Assembly: GCA_013359135.1 (NCBI GenBank)
Contig: JABWCN010000010.1
Span: forward strand, 1-64,000
Direction: 5' to 3'
DNA: 64,000 nucleotides
Source: Pseudobdellovibrionaceae bacterium
GTDB taxonomy: Bacteria; Bdellovibrionota; Bdellovibrionia; Bdellovibrionales; Bdellovibrionaceae
Below the pieces are notes generated by a model. The model saw only the letters and a program-made list of their open reading frames with translations, did not search any database and had not been told where the DNA came from. This document shows positions 17,083-24,795 of this stretch, one piece after another. The first letter of the stretch is position 1. Each line of letters opens with the position of its first letter. The position numbers and the translations under genes are program-made.

Positions 17083-18822
17083 ATGATGAAACAAAAATTT
17101 AATTTAAAAAATCCAGTTTTAATAGCTATCAAAAAAACAGGTTTGTGGTCATTAATCGTTGTTTATTTGTCTGCTTGTTCACACTTTTCAAAAAATAACG
17201 ATGTGGCAACAGTTGGTAATTCTTCAGATTTAAAAGAACAAAAATTAAGTTTGAATAAGGATGTTAGCACTTCAGATGTTAAAAAAGAGTTACCTTCATT
17301 TCATTTAGACGAAGATGTTTCTTCAAGTGCTGTTGTAACTGAGTTAGAGACAACTCCTACAGAAGTGAACTCTATGGTAGAAAAATGGATTAGCTATTTT
17401 CAAAATCGTGGTCGAGCCCATATGGAAAGATATTTGGCTAGATCAACACGTTATGAAAAGCTCATGAAAAAAGTTTTAAGAGATAATGGCTTGCCAGAGG
17501 ATCTATTTTATATTGCCCTAATTGAGTCTGGATTTACATCAAGTGCTACAAGTCATGCTTCTGCGGTTGGGTATTGGCAGTTTATCAGGGGAACAGGGAA
17601 ACGTTATGGGCTTGAAATTAACAAATTTGTAGATGAAAGAAGAGATCCCGTAGTTGCTACTCAAGCGGCTGCAGATTATTTTAAAGAACTTTACTCTATG
17701 TTTGGCTCTTGGTATCTAGCGATGGCTTCTTATAATGTTGGAGAGGGTAAAGTTAAGAGAGAAACTATTAAGAATGATACAAGAGATTTTTGGGAGATTG
17801 CTAAAAAGAAAAGATTGCCAAAAGAAACTATTAATTACATTCCAAAATATATCGCAGCGAAACTGATTGCTAAAAATCCTGATAAATATGGTTTTGATGG
17901 GATTGATTATTTGCCACCGATTGAGTTTGATACTATGGCTTTTGACTCGCCTGTAAATCTAAGAACTATGGCGGATAAGATGAACTATAACTATGAAGAT
18001 TTTAAAGCTTTAAATCCTAAATTTAAAGGTGAAGTTGCACCACTATCTAATAATAAGCTTGCATTGAGAATTCCTGTTGGCATGTTGGAGACTGCAAAAA
18101 CTGCAGCTTTAGAGGCTAAAGTTGATAAAGTTGAATTTATAGCTGACTCTGGAGCTACCCAAATCTACAAAATTCGTGGTGGTGAGTCTTTATATACGAT
18201 TGCTAAAAGATTTAGAACTACGGTTGCTTATTTACGCGACCTAAATGATCTTCCCAGAAAAAAACGTTTAAGAGCGGGAACTAAAATTTATGTACCAGAT
18301 CGCACTCCCCAGAAAGAAAGAACTAAGATAGCTGCTGTTGTGACACCAAAAAGTACTGTAGCAGAAACAGCGACCTCGACAACTGGCCCAGGTTTAAGTA
18401 GCAGTGAAGCTAGTATTAAAGAAAATAAAAGTTCTGAAGTTATTAGCGAGGGAGTCACTAAATACTATATTGTTCAAAATGGTGACTCTTTGTTTAGTAT
18501 TGCGCAAAAGTATAACACTACAGTTGGTGAGTTAAAAAAAATCAATCAAATCAAAAGAGGAAAATCATTAAGAGCTGGTGTTAAATTAAAATTGCCAAGT
18601 GATGAAGTTGAAAAAGGTAATAAAGTCCCTGATGAGTCGGCTAAAAATACAACTGGTTCAAGTCAAAAAAAAGTTAAAACAACTCGTTTCCATATAGTTA
18701 AGCGTGGAGACAGTCTTAAGAAAATTTCTATGAAGTACGATATTAATCTTAGTAAGCTAAAAAAAATTAATAGACTCGATAAATCAGCTAAACTTATCGT
18801 TGGTCAACGCATTACCTTGTAA
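17083..18822 (+). CDS. mltD: MltD-like membrane-bound lytic transglycosylase with three LysM domains
   Basis: The 579-residue protein begins with a lipoprotein signal (YLSAC, C32). The SLT domain has catalytic E148 in ALIESGF, followed by AVGYWQF and YNVGEGK. Three LysM peptidoglycan-binding repeats lie at about 361-405, 461-505 and 535-579. This is the standard MltD layout. It lies 78 bases after the Slt gene and may share its transcript. A terminator follows at 18865. Confidence 0.93.
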   Translation: MMKQKFNLKNPVLIAIKKTGLWSLIVVYLSACSHFSKNNDVATVGNSSDLKEQKLSLNKDVSTSDVKKELPSFHLDEDVSSSAVVTELETTPTEVNSMVEKWISYFQNRGRAHMERYLARSTRYEKLMKKVLRDNGLPEDLFYIALIESGFTSSATSHASAVGYWQFIRGTGKRYGLEINKFVDERRDPVVATQAAADYFKELYSMFGSWYLAMASYNVGEGKVKRETIKNDTRDFWEIAKKKRLPKETINYIPKYIAAKLIAKNPDKYGFDGIDYLPPIEFDTMAFDSPVNLRTMADKMNYNYEDFKALNPKFKGEVAPLSNNKLALRIPVGMLETAKTAALEAKVDKVEFIADSGATQIYKIRGGESLYTIAKRFRTTVAYLRDLNDLPRKKRLRAGTKIYVPDRTPQKERTKIAAVVTPKSTVAETATSTTGPGLSSSEASIKENKSSEVISEGVTKYYIVQNGDSLFSIAQKYNTTVGELKKINQIKRGKSLRAGVKLKLPSDEVEKGNKVPDESAKNTTGSSQKKVKTTRFHIVKRGDSLKKISMKYDINLSKLKKINRLDKSAKLIVGQRITL

Positions 18823-19079: not shown

Positions 19080-21473
19080 ATGAACCAAATATTTAAGTTC
19101 ATAATTTTATCAGTATCAGTTTTAGTTTTGAATAAAACTAAAGCTCTTGCTCAGAGTGCGGCTTGTCTTTCTAAATACACTTCGATGGATTTTAAAAAGC
19201 TCTCTGCTGACAAAAATAGTATTAATGTTGAGGATTTGGTTACGAAATTTATTGGTGTTATAGTATCTGTCGATATGTCACCTTTAACTCAAGAAAGTCT
19301 ACTAAAAGCTCACCTTAAGTTAGAAAGAAGTATTAGTACTAGCGAAATCGAAAGTATTCTTAAAGATTTAAATAATCAAGATCCACAAGAAAAAAACTTT
19401 GGTAAGAAAGTTGATTTTGTTAACGATGAACTAGAAAAACTAAACAAAATGTTGATTGAATTTGGTAAAGGTGAGGTACCTTGGCAAAAACGGATAAATA
19501 AACAGAAATACTTAGATGAAAAAAAGAAAAGTATTTTAGAGTCATTTAATGGAATCAAAATTATATTGAATATACTTAAAAGTGCAAATCTTACGACAAG
19601 TATGAAAGATCTGAATGCTAGATATGATTACTTTAGTGAGCAAGAAAAAATTTTGGAAAATAATTTATCTTTCATTGATAATTTTACTGTTTCAGTTGCC
19701 GATAAACTTCAACAATACCCACACCTAGCAGCAAAACTTAGTTCTTCTTTAAATATTTTAAGTACCACTAGAATTATGTTAGATTCAAATATTCGATTAA
19801 TTCAAAATGTGAAGTCTTTAATTGCATCTAAATTGAGAAATATAGCCACAGTTAAATCACTTGTTGAAAATGAGCAAGAGTTTTCTTATTTGACTATTCT
19901 TATTCAAAATGGAGTTTATTTTTCAAATATAGAAGAAAAACTAAATGAAATTAGCAAAAGTCAGAAAGGTTTAGTCGTAAATAATAGGTTACCAATTGTC
20001 GCAAGTGATTATAACAATGTATCGACAGCAAAAGTACGTGGCTTTGAGGTTAATACTGTATCTTCTTTGGAACAAAGAGATTTAGGAAAATTTTCATTGG
20101 CCAATAATTCAACTAAATTTAACCCTTCAAATAGTAGAAAAGAACACCTAAGTGAGGTGCGCAAAGAGACTCAGTTAGATGGTGAAGCATCTAAAAATAT
20201 TTTGGAGCAAAATACTATAGAGAAAGAATTAGAGCATTTTTTAAATGCCAACAAAATTTGGATTCCTGAACAAAACCTGAAACAGTTGATTAAAACTGAA
20301 TATCAATTAGAAGCAGTCAAATTAATATGCAGCAGATTAGGTAAGTCGTCAGGTGTTTTAGAAAATATATTTACAATAGTTGGTAGTTTTAAAAGTGAAT
20401 ATTCATACAAGGCGTTAAAGACCTCTTTCTTGGACGAATTTAGTTCTAAGTGGGGTGATGAGATGTCAGCTAACTTTTTTACAAAGTATCAGCATGGTAT
20501 CATTCAAATGGTAAAAGAAGTTATTGCTCCAATAAAATCACAAGAAGAATTAGATAATTTTTCTATTATTGTTAGAACTTCTTTAAATTCTACCGAATTT
20601 GACCAAGTTTATTCTTTATTAATGCGTAAGAGCAAACTTATGGAAGCCCTAACTCGGCTTAATCTAAAAACGAATGATGAGAATTTAAGTTTTGAAGAGT
20701 TTCGTGACAAAGTATTGAGTTTGAAAATGTCTTTCATAAAAACGAGTAAGCAATTAATTAAGGCATATAACTACGAAAATAGACCTATTTTAAAATTTGT
20801 GTTTATGGATAAGGAAACTAAAAAATTAACACTGGATGAGTTAAAAACAAAACAAATAAATGAATTTAATGCTATTTTAGATTTATTTCTAAATATCAAA
20901 AGAAATTCAACATACATGACTGAAGAAATGTCTAAACTTGTGAAGGATTTGCTTAATATGCCTTTGGATTTATGGAAAGCTCCAGAATGGAATCGTAAAA
21001 ATATTGATATTTTGAAATCTATATATATGGAGATTGTTTTATATAAATTGTCAAACTTCGATATAAATTCGATGGACAATTTTAAAAGATTTGCAGACAT
21101 TGTTAAGTTTCACTTCGATTTAAAGACTTTCGGACCTTCTGAAATTGAAATAGATAGAGATCTTGAACCTTATATTCTTAAGGTTATTTATCAGAAAATT
21201 TCAATTTTCCATGATCGAGTTTTAAAATCAAAATACACCGATATTGAGGGTGAGTTATTGAAAAATAATTCAGATTACTCCGCATTGATTATGAAAATGC
21301 TTTTTAAAAAAGCTAACGAATTATTTGTAAATGAATTCGTGGCTCTAGACTCAAAAGATAGAGAAATTTTTATATCAAACTACAAGCCCTTTAAAGGATC
21401 GGGAGCTTCTCGTAGTTATGGTTATTTCTATAATGAAAAAAATGAAAATGTTTTAAGAAGCTTAAGAAATTAA
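19080..21473 (+). CDS. Large secreted helical protein of unknown function
   Basis: The 797-residue protein starts with a signal peptide (residues 1-25, ending KALAQS). The remainder looks almost wholly alpha-helical, Lys/Asn/Leu-rich and without membrane segments. I recognise no domain. Cys residues are few: one follows the signal peptide and one lies mid-protein. The ribosome binding site is AAAAGAGAGAG. It has its own leader structure and stands between terminators, so it is a single-gene unit. The minus-strand RNA terminator overlaps its stop region. Export to the periplasm or beyond is the only supported statement. Confidence 0.85.
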   Translation: MNQIFKFIILSVSVLVLNKTKALAQSAACLSKYTSMDFKKLSADKNSINVEDLVTKFIGVIVSVDMSPLTQESLLKAHLKLERSISTSEIESILKDLNNQDPQEKNFGKKVDFVNDELEKLNKMLIEFGKGEVPWQKRINKQKYLDEKKKSILESFNGIKIILNILKSANLTTSMKDLNARYDYFSEQEKILENNLSFIDNFTVSVADKLQQYPHLAAKLSSSLNILSTTRIMLDSNIRLIQNVKSLIASKLRNIATVKSLVENEQEFSYLTILIQNGVYFSNIEEKLNEISKSQKGLVVNNRLPIVASDYNNVSTAKVRGFEVNTVSSLEQRDLGKFSLANNSTKFNPSNSRKEHLSEVRKETQLDGEASKNILEQNTIEKELEHFLNANKIWIPEQNLKQLIKTEYQLEAVKLICSRLGKSSGVLENIFTIVGSFKSEYSYKALKTSFLDEFSSKWGDEMSANFFTKYQHGIIQMVKEVIAPIKSQEELDNFSIIVRTSLNSTEFDQVYSLLMRKSKLMEALTRLNLKTNDENLSFEEFRDKVLSLKMSFIKTSKQLIKAYNYENRPILKFVFMDKETKKLTLDELKTKQINEFNAILDLFLNIKRNSTYMTEEMSKLVKDLLNMPLDLWKAPEWNRKNIDILKSIYMEIVLYKLSNFDINSMDNFKRFADIVKFHFDLKTFGPSEIEIDRDLEPYILKVIYQKISIFHDRVLKSKYTDIEGELLKNNSDYSALIMKMLFKKANELFVNEFVALDSKDREIFISNYKPFKGSGASRSYGYFYNEKNENVLRSLRN

Positions 21474-21481
21474 AATAAAGA

Positions 21482-21516
21482 AGCCTACAGTTATCTCTCC
21501 TGATATTCTGTAGGCT
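21482..21516 (-). terminator. Terminator of the c-di-GMP RNA
   Basis: A perfect 9-bp stem (AGCCTACAG with CTGTAGGCT, 17-base loop) is followed on the minus strand by TCTTTATTTT. It abuts the stop of the convergent 19080 gene. Confidence 0.75.
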
Positions 21517-21598
21517 AAGGGGAATGAAACCAATCCATGAATATTTTTATGTTTTTTATTCCTTCCATTTGTCACTCCGAATTTCCCTCGGGTTCTTA

Positions 21599-21689
21599 CC
21601 TTTGGTAGCTGGCTGGCATTGACTTTTGTGTCTGAAGCCCCTTTAGCTTTGCGTATTCATCTTTCGATGAGTTTGCCCTGAGGCAAAGG
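21599..21689 (-). promoter_or_regulatory. c-di-GMP-I (GEMM-I) riboswitch aptamer
   Basis: On the minus strand P1 is CCTTTG/CAAAGG. The core CAGGGCAAAC (21680-21671) is followed by P2 TCATC/GATGA closed by a GAAA tetraloop, then ACGCAAAGC, then a P3 arm containing GAC/GTC and the receptor-side GCCAGCCAGC. All conserved GEMM-I blocks occur in order and with normal spacing. The tetraloop and its receptor arm are both present, so ligand binding is expected. Confidence 0.92.
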
Positions 21690-21890
21690 AAGGTAATATC
21701 TTTTAGATATCTACCTCTAGGAAACCTCCTTTGTTAAGGCGTCATCTTCCATCTGACTTTGGGGCCCAATATTTCAGGACCTTATCGCTTACTTCCTACT
21801 TCCGTTTAGGATATGATTTAATAATACCAAGGTCTTAAAAAAAATCCACCTAAAAATTAAAAATACCCAATAATATCAATAATTTGTATC

Positions 21891-21919
21891 ATTATGATAA
21901 AAACATTGATAGTTGTCTA
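21891..21919 (-). promoter_or_regulatory. Predicted sigma-70-type promoter of the c-di-GMP RNA
   Basis: The minus strand has TAGACA (21919-21914), a 17-base spacer and CATAAT (21896-21891); each box has five of six consensus bases. A start near 21884 would give a transcript of about 400 bases. The promoter choice is a prediction, and AT-rich alternatives exist further down. Confidence 0.5.
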
Positions 21920-24000: not shown

Positions 24001-24795
24001 CTAAACAGGTAAAATTTCTGAAATCTTTTGGGCTATTCTGGTGAATTCTTGAGTTTCTTCGCTCGAAGTGTGGCTTTCAATGATCGGAATACCAGCTTCT
24101 GATGCGACACCAATTGAAGGGTTAAAAGGAACCTCTCCTAGTTTTTTAAAGCTTTTCTCCTGAATGTAATTATTAAGATCACCCTTTGCAAAAAGTTGAA
24201 TTTTCTCTCCATTGGATGGGTTAACCATATAACTCATATTTTCAATAATCCCCAGTATTGGAATTTGTACTCGTTGAAACATATCTATGGCTTTTTTGAC
24301 ATCGATAAGAGATATATTTTGTGGAGTGGTAACAACGATAGCACCACTAAGAGGAACTTTTTGGGCCAAACTGAGCTGAACATCTCCAGTGCCTGGGGGG
24401 AGATCTACTATAAGGTAATCTAATTCACCCCACTCAACGTCTCTTAAAAATTGATCCATTGCTTTAAAAAGCATCGGGCCTCGCCAAACAACAGCAGATT
24501 CTTCTTCGATCAAAAATCCAATGCTCATAATTTTTAATCGGTATCTTTCTATGGGAACTAGTTTCTGCTCAGGTGTGATGGCAGGTTTTTGTTTAAGACA
24601 GCCAAGCATTCTTGGAATACTGGGGCCATAGATGTCTGCATCTAAAAGTCCTACTTTGAAACGCTTAGCAAGAGCCAGAGCTAGGTGAGTACTGACAGTA
24701 GATTTTCCTACACCGCCTTTACCTGAACTGACGGCGATGATGTGTTTCACTTTGGGAATAGGTCTTTGTTGCTCAAATGGGTTGGGGGTGGCCAT
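24001..24795 (-). CDS. mrp: Mrp/ApbC-type Fe-S cluster carrier ATPase
   Basis: The 264-residue protein is a P-loop NTPase of the Mrp/NBP35 family with a deviant Walker A GKGGVGKS (25-32), DADIYGPS, DLPPGTGD and IENMSYM motifs. These proteins carry and transfer [4Fe-4S] clusters to apoproteins in the cytoplasm. The N-terminal DUF59 domain found in many Mrp proteins is absent, so it is the short form. The usual C-terminal CxxC cluster motif is not evident, which is an oddity. AAAGGAAA precedes the ATG. Confidence 0.9.
   Translation of the reverse strand: MATPNPFEQQRPIPKVKHIIAVSSGKGGVGKSTVSTHLALALAKRFKVGLLDADIYGPSIPRMLGCLKQKPAITPEQKLVPIERYRLKIMSIGFLIEEESAVVWRGPMLFKAMDQFLRDVEWGELDYLIVDLPPGTGDVQLSLAQKVPLSGAIVVTTPQNISLIDVKKAIDMFQRVQIPILGIIENMSYMVNPSNGEKIQLFAKGDLNNYIQEKSFKKLGEVPFNPSIGVASEAGIPIIESHTSSEETQEFTRIAQKISEILPV

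Follow-up and report, generated by a model that had tools for sequence, protein, structure and literature searches.

A c-di-GMP-I riboswitch RNA with no ordinary gene behind it raises the question of what its output might be. Such an RNA lies on the minus strand of the window, by which we mean the whole stretch of 64,000 nucleotides analysed here (positions 1 to 64,000 of contig JABWCN010000010.1, assembly GCA_013359135.1, a Pseudobdellovibrionaceae bacterium), and the original prediction read it as a free-standing molecule of the merRNA type. merRNA is one of the most abundant RNAs reported in attack-phase Bdellovibrio; it has been called non-coding and proposed to act as a c-di-GMP sponge, with no ORF reported downstream of its riboswitch and no conservation found outside the Bdellovibrio lineage (PMC3627812). 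This sponge model has been open since 2013. Here we ask whether the window RNA is merRNA, and what its relatives reveal about the function of the molecule.

A complete c-di-GMP-I aptamer in a terminated RNA

With cmscan, the c-di-GMP-I model RF01051 matches the window at 21687-21601 on the minus strand over its full length (model positions 1-87 of 87), with a score of 67.3 bits (gathering score 35; E-value in the window 5.2e-11). This assigns the RNA to the c-di-GMP-I class, whose aptamer it resembles in both fold and sequence, and agrees with the prediction of a complete GEMM-I aptamer giving a minus-strand hit at about 21599-21689. No other match occurs in the 3.84 Mb genome, which also has five GGDEF matches as potential makers of c-di-GMP. 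On the RNA strand, the aptamer is followed by about 85 bases and then by the long stem of a terminator:

21601..21687, minus strand: c-di-GMP-I (GEMM-I, RF01051) aptamer, full-length model match
about 21516-21470, minus strand: intrinsic terminator, GCCTACAG...CTGTAGGC-TTCTTTATTTT, read from the sequence

The standard terminator scan passed over the stem GCCTACAG...CTGTAGGC, its loop being longer than 8. The stem and the T-rich tail TTCTTTATTTT nevertheless bear out the proposal that the RNA ends here.

c-di-GMP-I riboswitches are normally leaders of protein genes, whereas the sole frame downstream of the aptamer in the window is a micro-ORF, termed ORF2 below. In place of a same-strand protein gene directly downstream, there is the terminator and then a convergent gene of 797 aa (19080-21473, plus strand), which is the next gene. 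Hence, the original statement that no gene lies behind the RNA holds for ordinary genes, but it overlooked ORF2, which has a Shine-Dalgarno sequence and a stop codon between aptamer and terminator. The RNA stops where the convergent gene has its 3′ end, as might be expected of an ordinary cis riboswitch or of antisense control of a neighbour, in this case the 797-aa ORF. We consider such control extremely improbable: of the 86 relatives that could be tested, 85 have a terminator no more than 190 nt from the aptamer by our own scan; in many relatives other genes have come between the RNA and the tested neighbours, which are thereby displaced, yet the RNA persists; and one scan of the genome contigs found no relatives of the 797-aa protein.

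Orthology of the window RNA with merRNA

RF01051 is found in 89 of the 141 genomes of the order, in exactly one copy each, so that the original view of the window RNA as a second merRNA sequence was too narrow; across the phylum the count is 137 of 369 genomes, again with one copy each. Genome G004, which we take to be that of B. bacteriovorus HD100, has its aptamer at 1073868-1073951 on the minus strand. This falls inside the published merRNA at 1,073,741-1,074,185 on the same strand (PMC3627812).

The position of the RNA also recurs. In many members of families f1, f5, f6, f7 and f9, a DnaJ-like gene and an Mrp-type ATPase gene lie upstream of it and a convergent LysM/transglycosylase gene lies downstream, sometimes with other genes intervening; in the f10 genome, the Mrp gene alone is present, on the other side of the RNA. 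The window has the same gene order, except that an inserted oligopeptide-transporter gene separates Mrp from the RNA, which thus occupies the position orthologous to that in HD100. The two markers of this neighbourhood are:

24001..24795, minus strand: Mrp-type ATPase gene, upstream marker; a homologue precedes the RNA in HD100 and across families
17083..18822, plus strand: LysM/lytic transglycosylase gene, downstream marker; convergent homologue downstream of the RNA across families

Homology between the window and HD100 extends beyond the aptamer to AGGAGGTT, to both strands of a helix, P0, described below, and to a 3′ stretch of 23 bases, GGATTGGTTTCATTCCCCTTAGC, that is identical in the two. 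Since the aptamer is single-copy, the HD100 hit lies inside merRNA, the synteny recurs and the 3′ stretch is shared, the window RNA is, judged on these comparisons, the merRNA of another genus of Bdellovibrionaceae and an orthologue of the HD100 molecule. The original assignment to a free-standing, merRNA-type c-di-GMP-I RNA is thereby confirmed and, through synteny and the shared 3′ flank, raised to one of orthology. Like HD100 merRNA (PMC3627812), the window RNA is free-standing, with a GEMM-I aptamer, its own terminator, the same neighbourhood, the 3′ core GGATTGGTTTCATTCCCCTTAGC and a micro-ORF at the position of ORF2, and no ordinary gene follows. The published molecule is 445 nt long, as against about 325 nt for the window RNA if the start proposed below holds; it also has a further micro-ORF, ORF1, that the window RNA lacks, while the palindrome upstream of the window RNA is specific to its genus.

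GEMM-I RNAs from other classes of the phylum (families f22-f26) were considered as merRNA and rejected: their flanks differ, they show no Mrp or transglycosylase match, and they have no ending of the ORF1 type. One of these classes (L094-L107) has a single compact GEMM-I RNA per genome with the closing pair GAAGAGG / CCTCTTC. At several of these loci, an ORF with a queE-like start (..DGLLISE.., ..EIFHSIQGE..) comes after a terminator-like hairpin.

Promoter and 5′ end

The original prediction placed the promoter at TAGACA-17-CATAAT (21919-21891). This is one of five sigma-70-like matches, fewer than the 6.6 that chance would give, and its '-10' lies within a conserved palindrome; we rejected it on both counts. 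Two upstream blocks are conserved in the window's genus, namely ACTATCAACA-N3-TTATCA-N2-ATGATACAA, with slight variation, and TCATATCC. The second contains TATCCT, which resembles the -10 of HD100, where ACTTTGGTCGAGCTATCCTG precedes the published 5′ end of merRNA. The elements upstream of the aptamer are:

21887..21899, minus strand: palindrome TATCATAATGATA, a possible regulator site; TATCA-N3-TGATA in 6 of 6 congeners, overlapping the rejected -10
21808..21813, minus strand: favoured -10 element TATCCT, within TCATATCC, invariant in 6 of 6 genomes of the genus
21475..21800, minus strand: favoured extent of the transcript, about 325 nt, with predicted start

Given that the TCATATCC block resembles the HD100 -10, a start near 21800 (RNA of about 325 nt) appears more likely than one at 21884 (410 nt). 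The earlier 5′ boundary of 21884 is then probably about 80 nt too far upstream, with the HD100-like -10 at 21813-21808. It should also be noted that in one congener (G060, locus L027) about 29 bases are tandemly duplicated between the palindrome and the -10 block.

A micro-ORF upstream of the aptamer

Most relatives have a micro-ORF of 9-19 codons, ORF1, which has a strong Shine-Dalgarno sequence and lies 110-260 nt before the aptamer, and whose C-terminus is mostly DPPPK/E, KSPK or EPPK. Examples are MKNRIHDHHDEPPK, MRRRKFDHRDKSPK, MKRIFNHNDKSPK, MVKRPMDWRLDPPPK and MFKVPKERRLDPPPK, each ending at a stop codon. In HD100, ORF1 reads MRTHEHHDDELK before its stop and starts 170 nt before the aptamer; the mapped 5′ end lies 234 nt before the aptamer, and ORF1 is contained in the mapped merRNA transcript.

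In a set chosen with a residue pattern, ORF1 is present at 62 of 89 loci. A codon test along a minimum spanning tree finds 132 of its 245 single-base codon changes to be synonymous, where 56.7 are expected, and the last seven codons give z-values of +10.2 in frame and of -4.5 and -4.1 in the other two frames. To guard against the selection bias of this set, the test was repeated with ORFs chosen by their Shine-Dalgarno sequence alone. Such an ORF is found at 61 of 89 loci, whereas the opposite strand has one at 6 of 89; of the 61, 58 share their stop codon with the first set. The z-value is then +9.6, rising to +10.0 when each genus is represented by one sequence. Both sets give about +10 in frame and about -3 to -4 out of frame, values which are descriptive in that they treat the edges of the tree as independent. 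This codon pattern argues that ORF1 is under protein-level selection, which is the firmest new result of the analysis.

In the window's genus, ORF1 was not found by either strong or relaxed criteria in any of six genomes, and the proposed start site leaves little room for it. It is also missing in a few other genera, and family f5 is without it; therefore, ORF1 is dispensable. It is not part of the published definition of merRNA, and the window RNA adds a new merRNA variant, one without ORF1. As a separate observation, in the f10 genome (L016) a single RNA has three micro-ORF ends, LDPPPE-like or FPPPI, arranged in tandem 5′ of the aptamer.

A micro-ORF downstream of the aptamer

In family f1, the second micro-ORF, ORF2, has its start codon after the aptamer and its stop at the foot of the terminator. 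In the window it comprises:

21515..21568, minus strand: ORF2, 17 codons, MEGIKNIKIFMDWFHSP and stop; phase kept in relatives, core GGATTGGTTTCATTCCCCTTAG shared with HD100
21575..21578, minus strand: Shine-Dalgarno sequence GGAG of ORF2, 6 nt before the AUG, read from the sequence; relatives have GAGGTG or AGGTGA there

The peptide of HD100 is MEGTNTYKDWFHSP, and others are MEVKKVSKNYIMDWFHSP, MEGQFFSKIQDRFHSP, MSLENRFHSP and MERFFYSP, all followed by a stop codon. Of the 48 loci of the ATG class (ATGGAAG), 46 have an ATG-to-core distance divisible by 3, with in-phase lengths of 30, 33, 36, 39, 42, 45, 48 and 57; the exceptions are 28 and 47. The main genera have a Shine-Dalgarno sequence 6-8 nt ahead of the ATG. 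In several genera without the ATGGAAG start, the P0 strand GGAAGGA is itself the Shine-Dalgarno sequence of a later ATG.

At the codon level, ORF2 shows no synonymous excess (21 changes observed, 22.9 expected), and its core is invariant even at wobble positions. We accordingly do not regard it as a normal conserved peptide gene and retain it only as a frame-preserved ORF. Because the synonymous excess is absent, its conserved end may be an RNA element; we take ORF2 to be probably translated while its end is constrained at the RNA level. Families f7 and f9 have no clear ORF2, and neither micro-ORF is universal. Separately, L108 and L109 (family f27) have similar stretches downstream of the aptamer that end in ..ARPP.. 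before the stop, possibly another micro-ORF.

The invariance at this end could also be read as that of a trans-acting small RNA, in which UUUCAUUCCCCUUAG would pair with the Shine-Dalgarno regions of target mRNAs under the gating of c-di-GMP. UUUCAUUCCCCUUAG resembles an anti-Shine-Dalgarno sequence and is invariant in nucleotides, wobble positions included, in the main genera. However, it stands in frame as the end of ORF2, adjoins the terminator and is missing outside family f1, and we assign this reading a very slender probability.

Helix P0 and a possible alternative pairing

A helix, P0, sits below P1 (CUUUG/CAAAG) and closes the aptamer together with a variable hairpin. The pairing partners in this region are:

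21689..21693, minus strand: 5′ strand of P0, CCUUC, covarying with the 3′ strand across genera
21561..21566, minus strand: 3′ strand of P0, GGAAGG, directly behind the AUG of ORF2, from RNAalifold with 26 sequences
21725..21732, minus strand: Shine-Dalgarno-like AAAGGAGG, an orphan in that no start codon follows, which could pair with CUUCCUUU of P0/P1

P0 covaries between genera and within genus g18 (CCUUC/GAAGG, ACUUC/GAAGU, UCUUC/GAAGA), and f7 has the counterpart AAUCCUUC/GGAGGAUU. RNAalifold on the 26 sequences recovers P0 without being prompted, and one of its pairs occurs as C-G, A-U and U-A. The helix is rarely significant in single genomes, while combination at the genus level gives a Stouffer value of 6.4 against a null of simple base shuffling. 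Hence, the support for P0 derives from covariation and from the genus-level combination, not from single genomes.

Upstream of P0, most of the order retains (A)AGGAGG or (A)AAGGAGG without a start codon some 40-45 nt ahead of the aptamer. In the window, AAAGGAGG:CUUCCUUU would form an alternative helix of 8 bp, for which no clear covariation is seen. Folded without ligand, the window RNA gives -82.7 kcal/mol with the alternative helix and -76.7 kcal/mol with P0+P1+P2, both forced, and -86.7 kcal/mol when unconstrained; the energy model without ligand does not favour the ligand-competent fold. By these modelled values the alternative helix is energetically possible, and we keep it as a guess.

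The orphan site invites the proposal that merRNA titrates ribosomes. Here c-di-GMP would free the orphan AAAGGAGGU, which, with the micro-ORF sites and slow-terminating codons, would hold 30S subunits in non-growing attack-phase cells. Such a role would suit a full Shine-Dalgarno sequence that is kept without a start codon across most of the order and that can pair with the 5′ strand of P0/P1, and an RNA reported to be twice as abundant as tmRNA (PMC3627812). The probability we attach to it is nonetheless slender, given that the alternative helix lacks visible covariation and the energy calculation is equivocal.

Discussion

The best explanation of these observations is a stand-alone, single-copy c-di-GMP-I RNA with its own promoter and terminator, in which c-di-GMP switches the translation of micro-ORFs; we put its chance of being right at about even. 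Across the order, merRNA would then be a micro-operon: a c-di-GMP riboswitch RNA that carries conserved micropeptides or stalling leader ORFs, one or two per molecule, and whose switch has as its output their translation or the capture of ribosomes on them, a proposal that we believe about as strongly as we doubt it. c-di-GMP from GGDEF proteins would bind the aptamer and stabilise P1 and thereby P0. P0 would pair the bases directly after the ORF2 start codon or, in other genera, the Shine-Dalgarno sequence itself, and the ligand would thus lower ORF2 translation. Against such a switch, the AUG of ORF2 itself stays open in the ligand-competent fold, and only the bases that follow are paired.

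Where ORF1 is present, it would be translated from the same RNA as ORF2. Endings such as PPPK, PPPE or SP before the stop belong to a type known to slow elongation or termination. The proline-rich C-termini of the micro-ORFs could therefore make termination slow, and a ribosome held there could influence the folding or stability of this abundant RNA. Proline-rich arrest or leader peptides of the TnaC type likewise come from a short ORF with an end of this type; those leaders have a downstream operon while the merRNA micro-ORFs have none, and stalling in merRNA would be a prediction from sequence. A precedent for translated uORFs in riboswitch RNA is found in the B12 riboswitches of Mycobacterium tuberculosis (PMC11260477), although the uORF there serves a downstream protein gene and the window RNA ends after its micro-ORF.

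c-di-GMP buffering could be a by-product of merRNA abundance. It would instead be the sole function if merRNA were a purely non-coding sponge, present in bulk in attack phase and releasing c-di-GMP on prey entry, with micro-ORFs that are incidental or only stabilising. In attack phase, HD100 merRNA does yield about as many reads as all protein-coding genes combined (PMC3627812), the aptamer is the sole universal part, each micro-ORF having been lost in some lineages, and no ordinary gene lies downstream. The pure sponge nevertheless leaves unexplained the protein-level selection on ORF1, the preserved frame of ORF2 and the covarying P0 that reaches the ORF2 start, and we consider it doubtful, if still a contender.

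The larger result is that merRNA, by these comparisons, occurs across the order and that most relatives encode a selected micro-ORF in it. No report of ORFs within merRNA was found in the literature searched, where, apart from PMC3627812, two papers mention the RNA only in passing, and the descriptions of merRNA as having no downstream ORF and no conservation outside the Bdellovibrio lineage need revision. With one copy per genome throughout the order and a recurring neighbourhood, the RNA now offers a deep alignment for its dissection. A selected ORF inside merRNA shifts the question from the amount of c-di-GMP that the RNA soaks up to the effect of translating it. If the micro-operon proposal is true, merRNA would be an unusual riboswitch, with micro-ORFs as its whole output.
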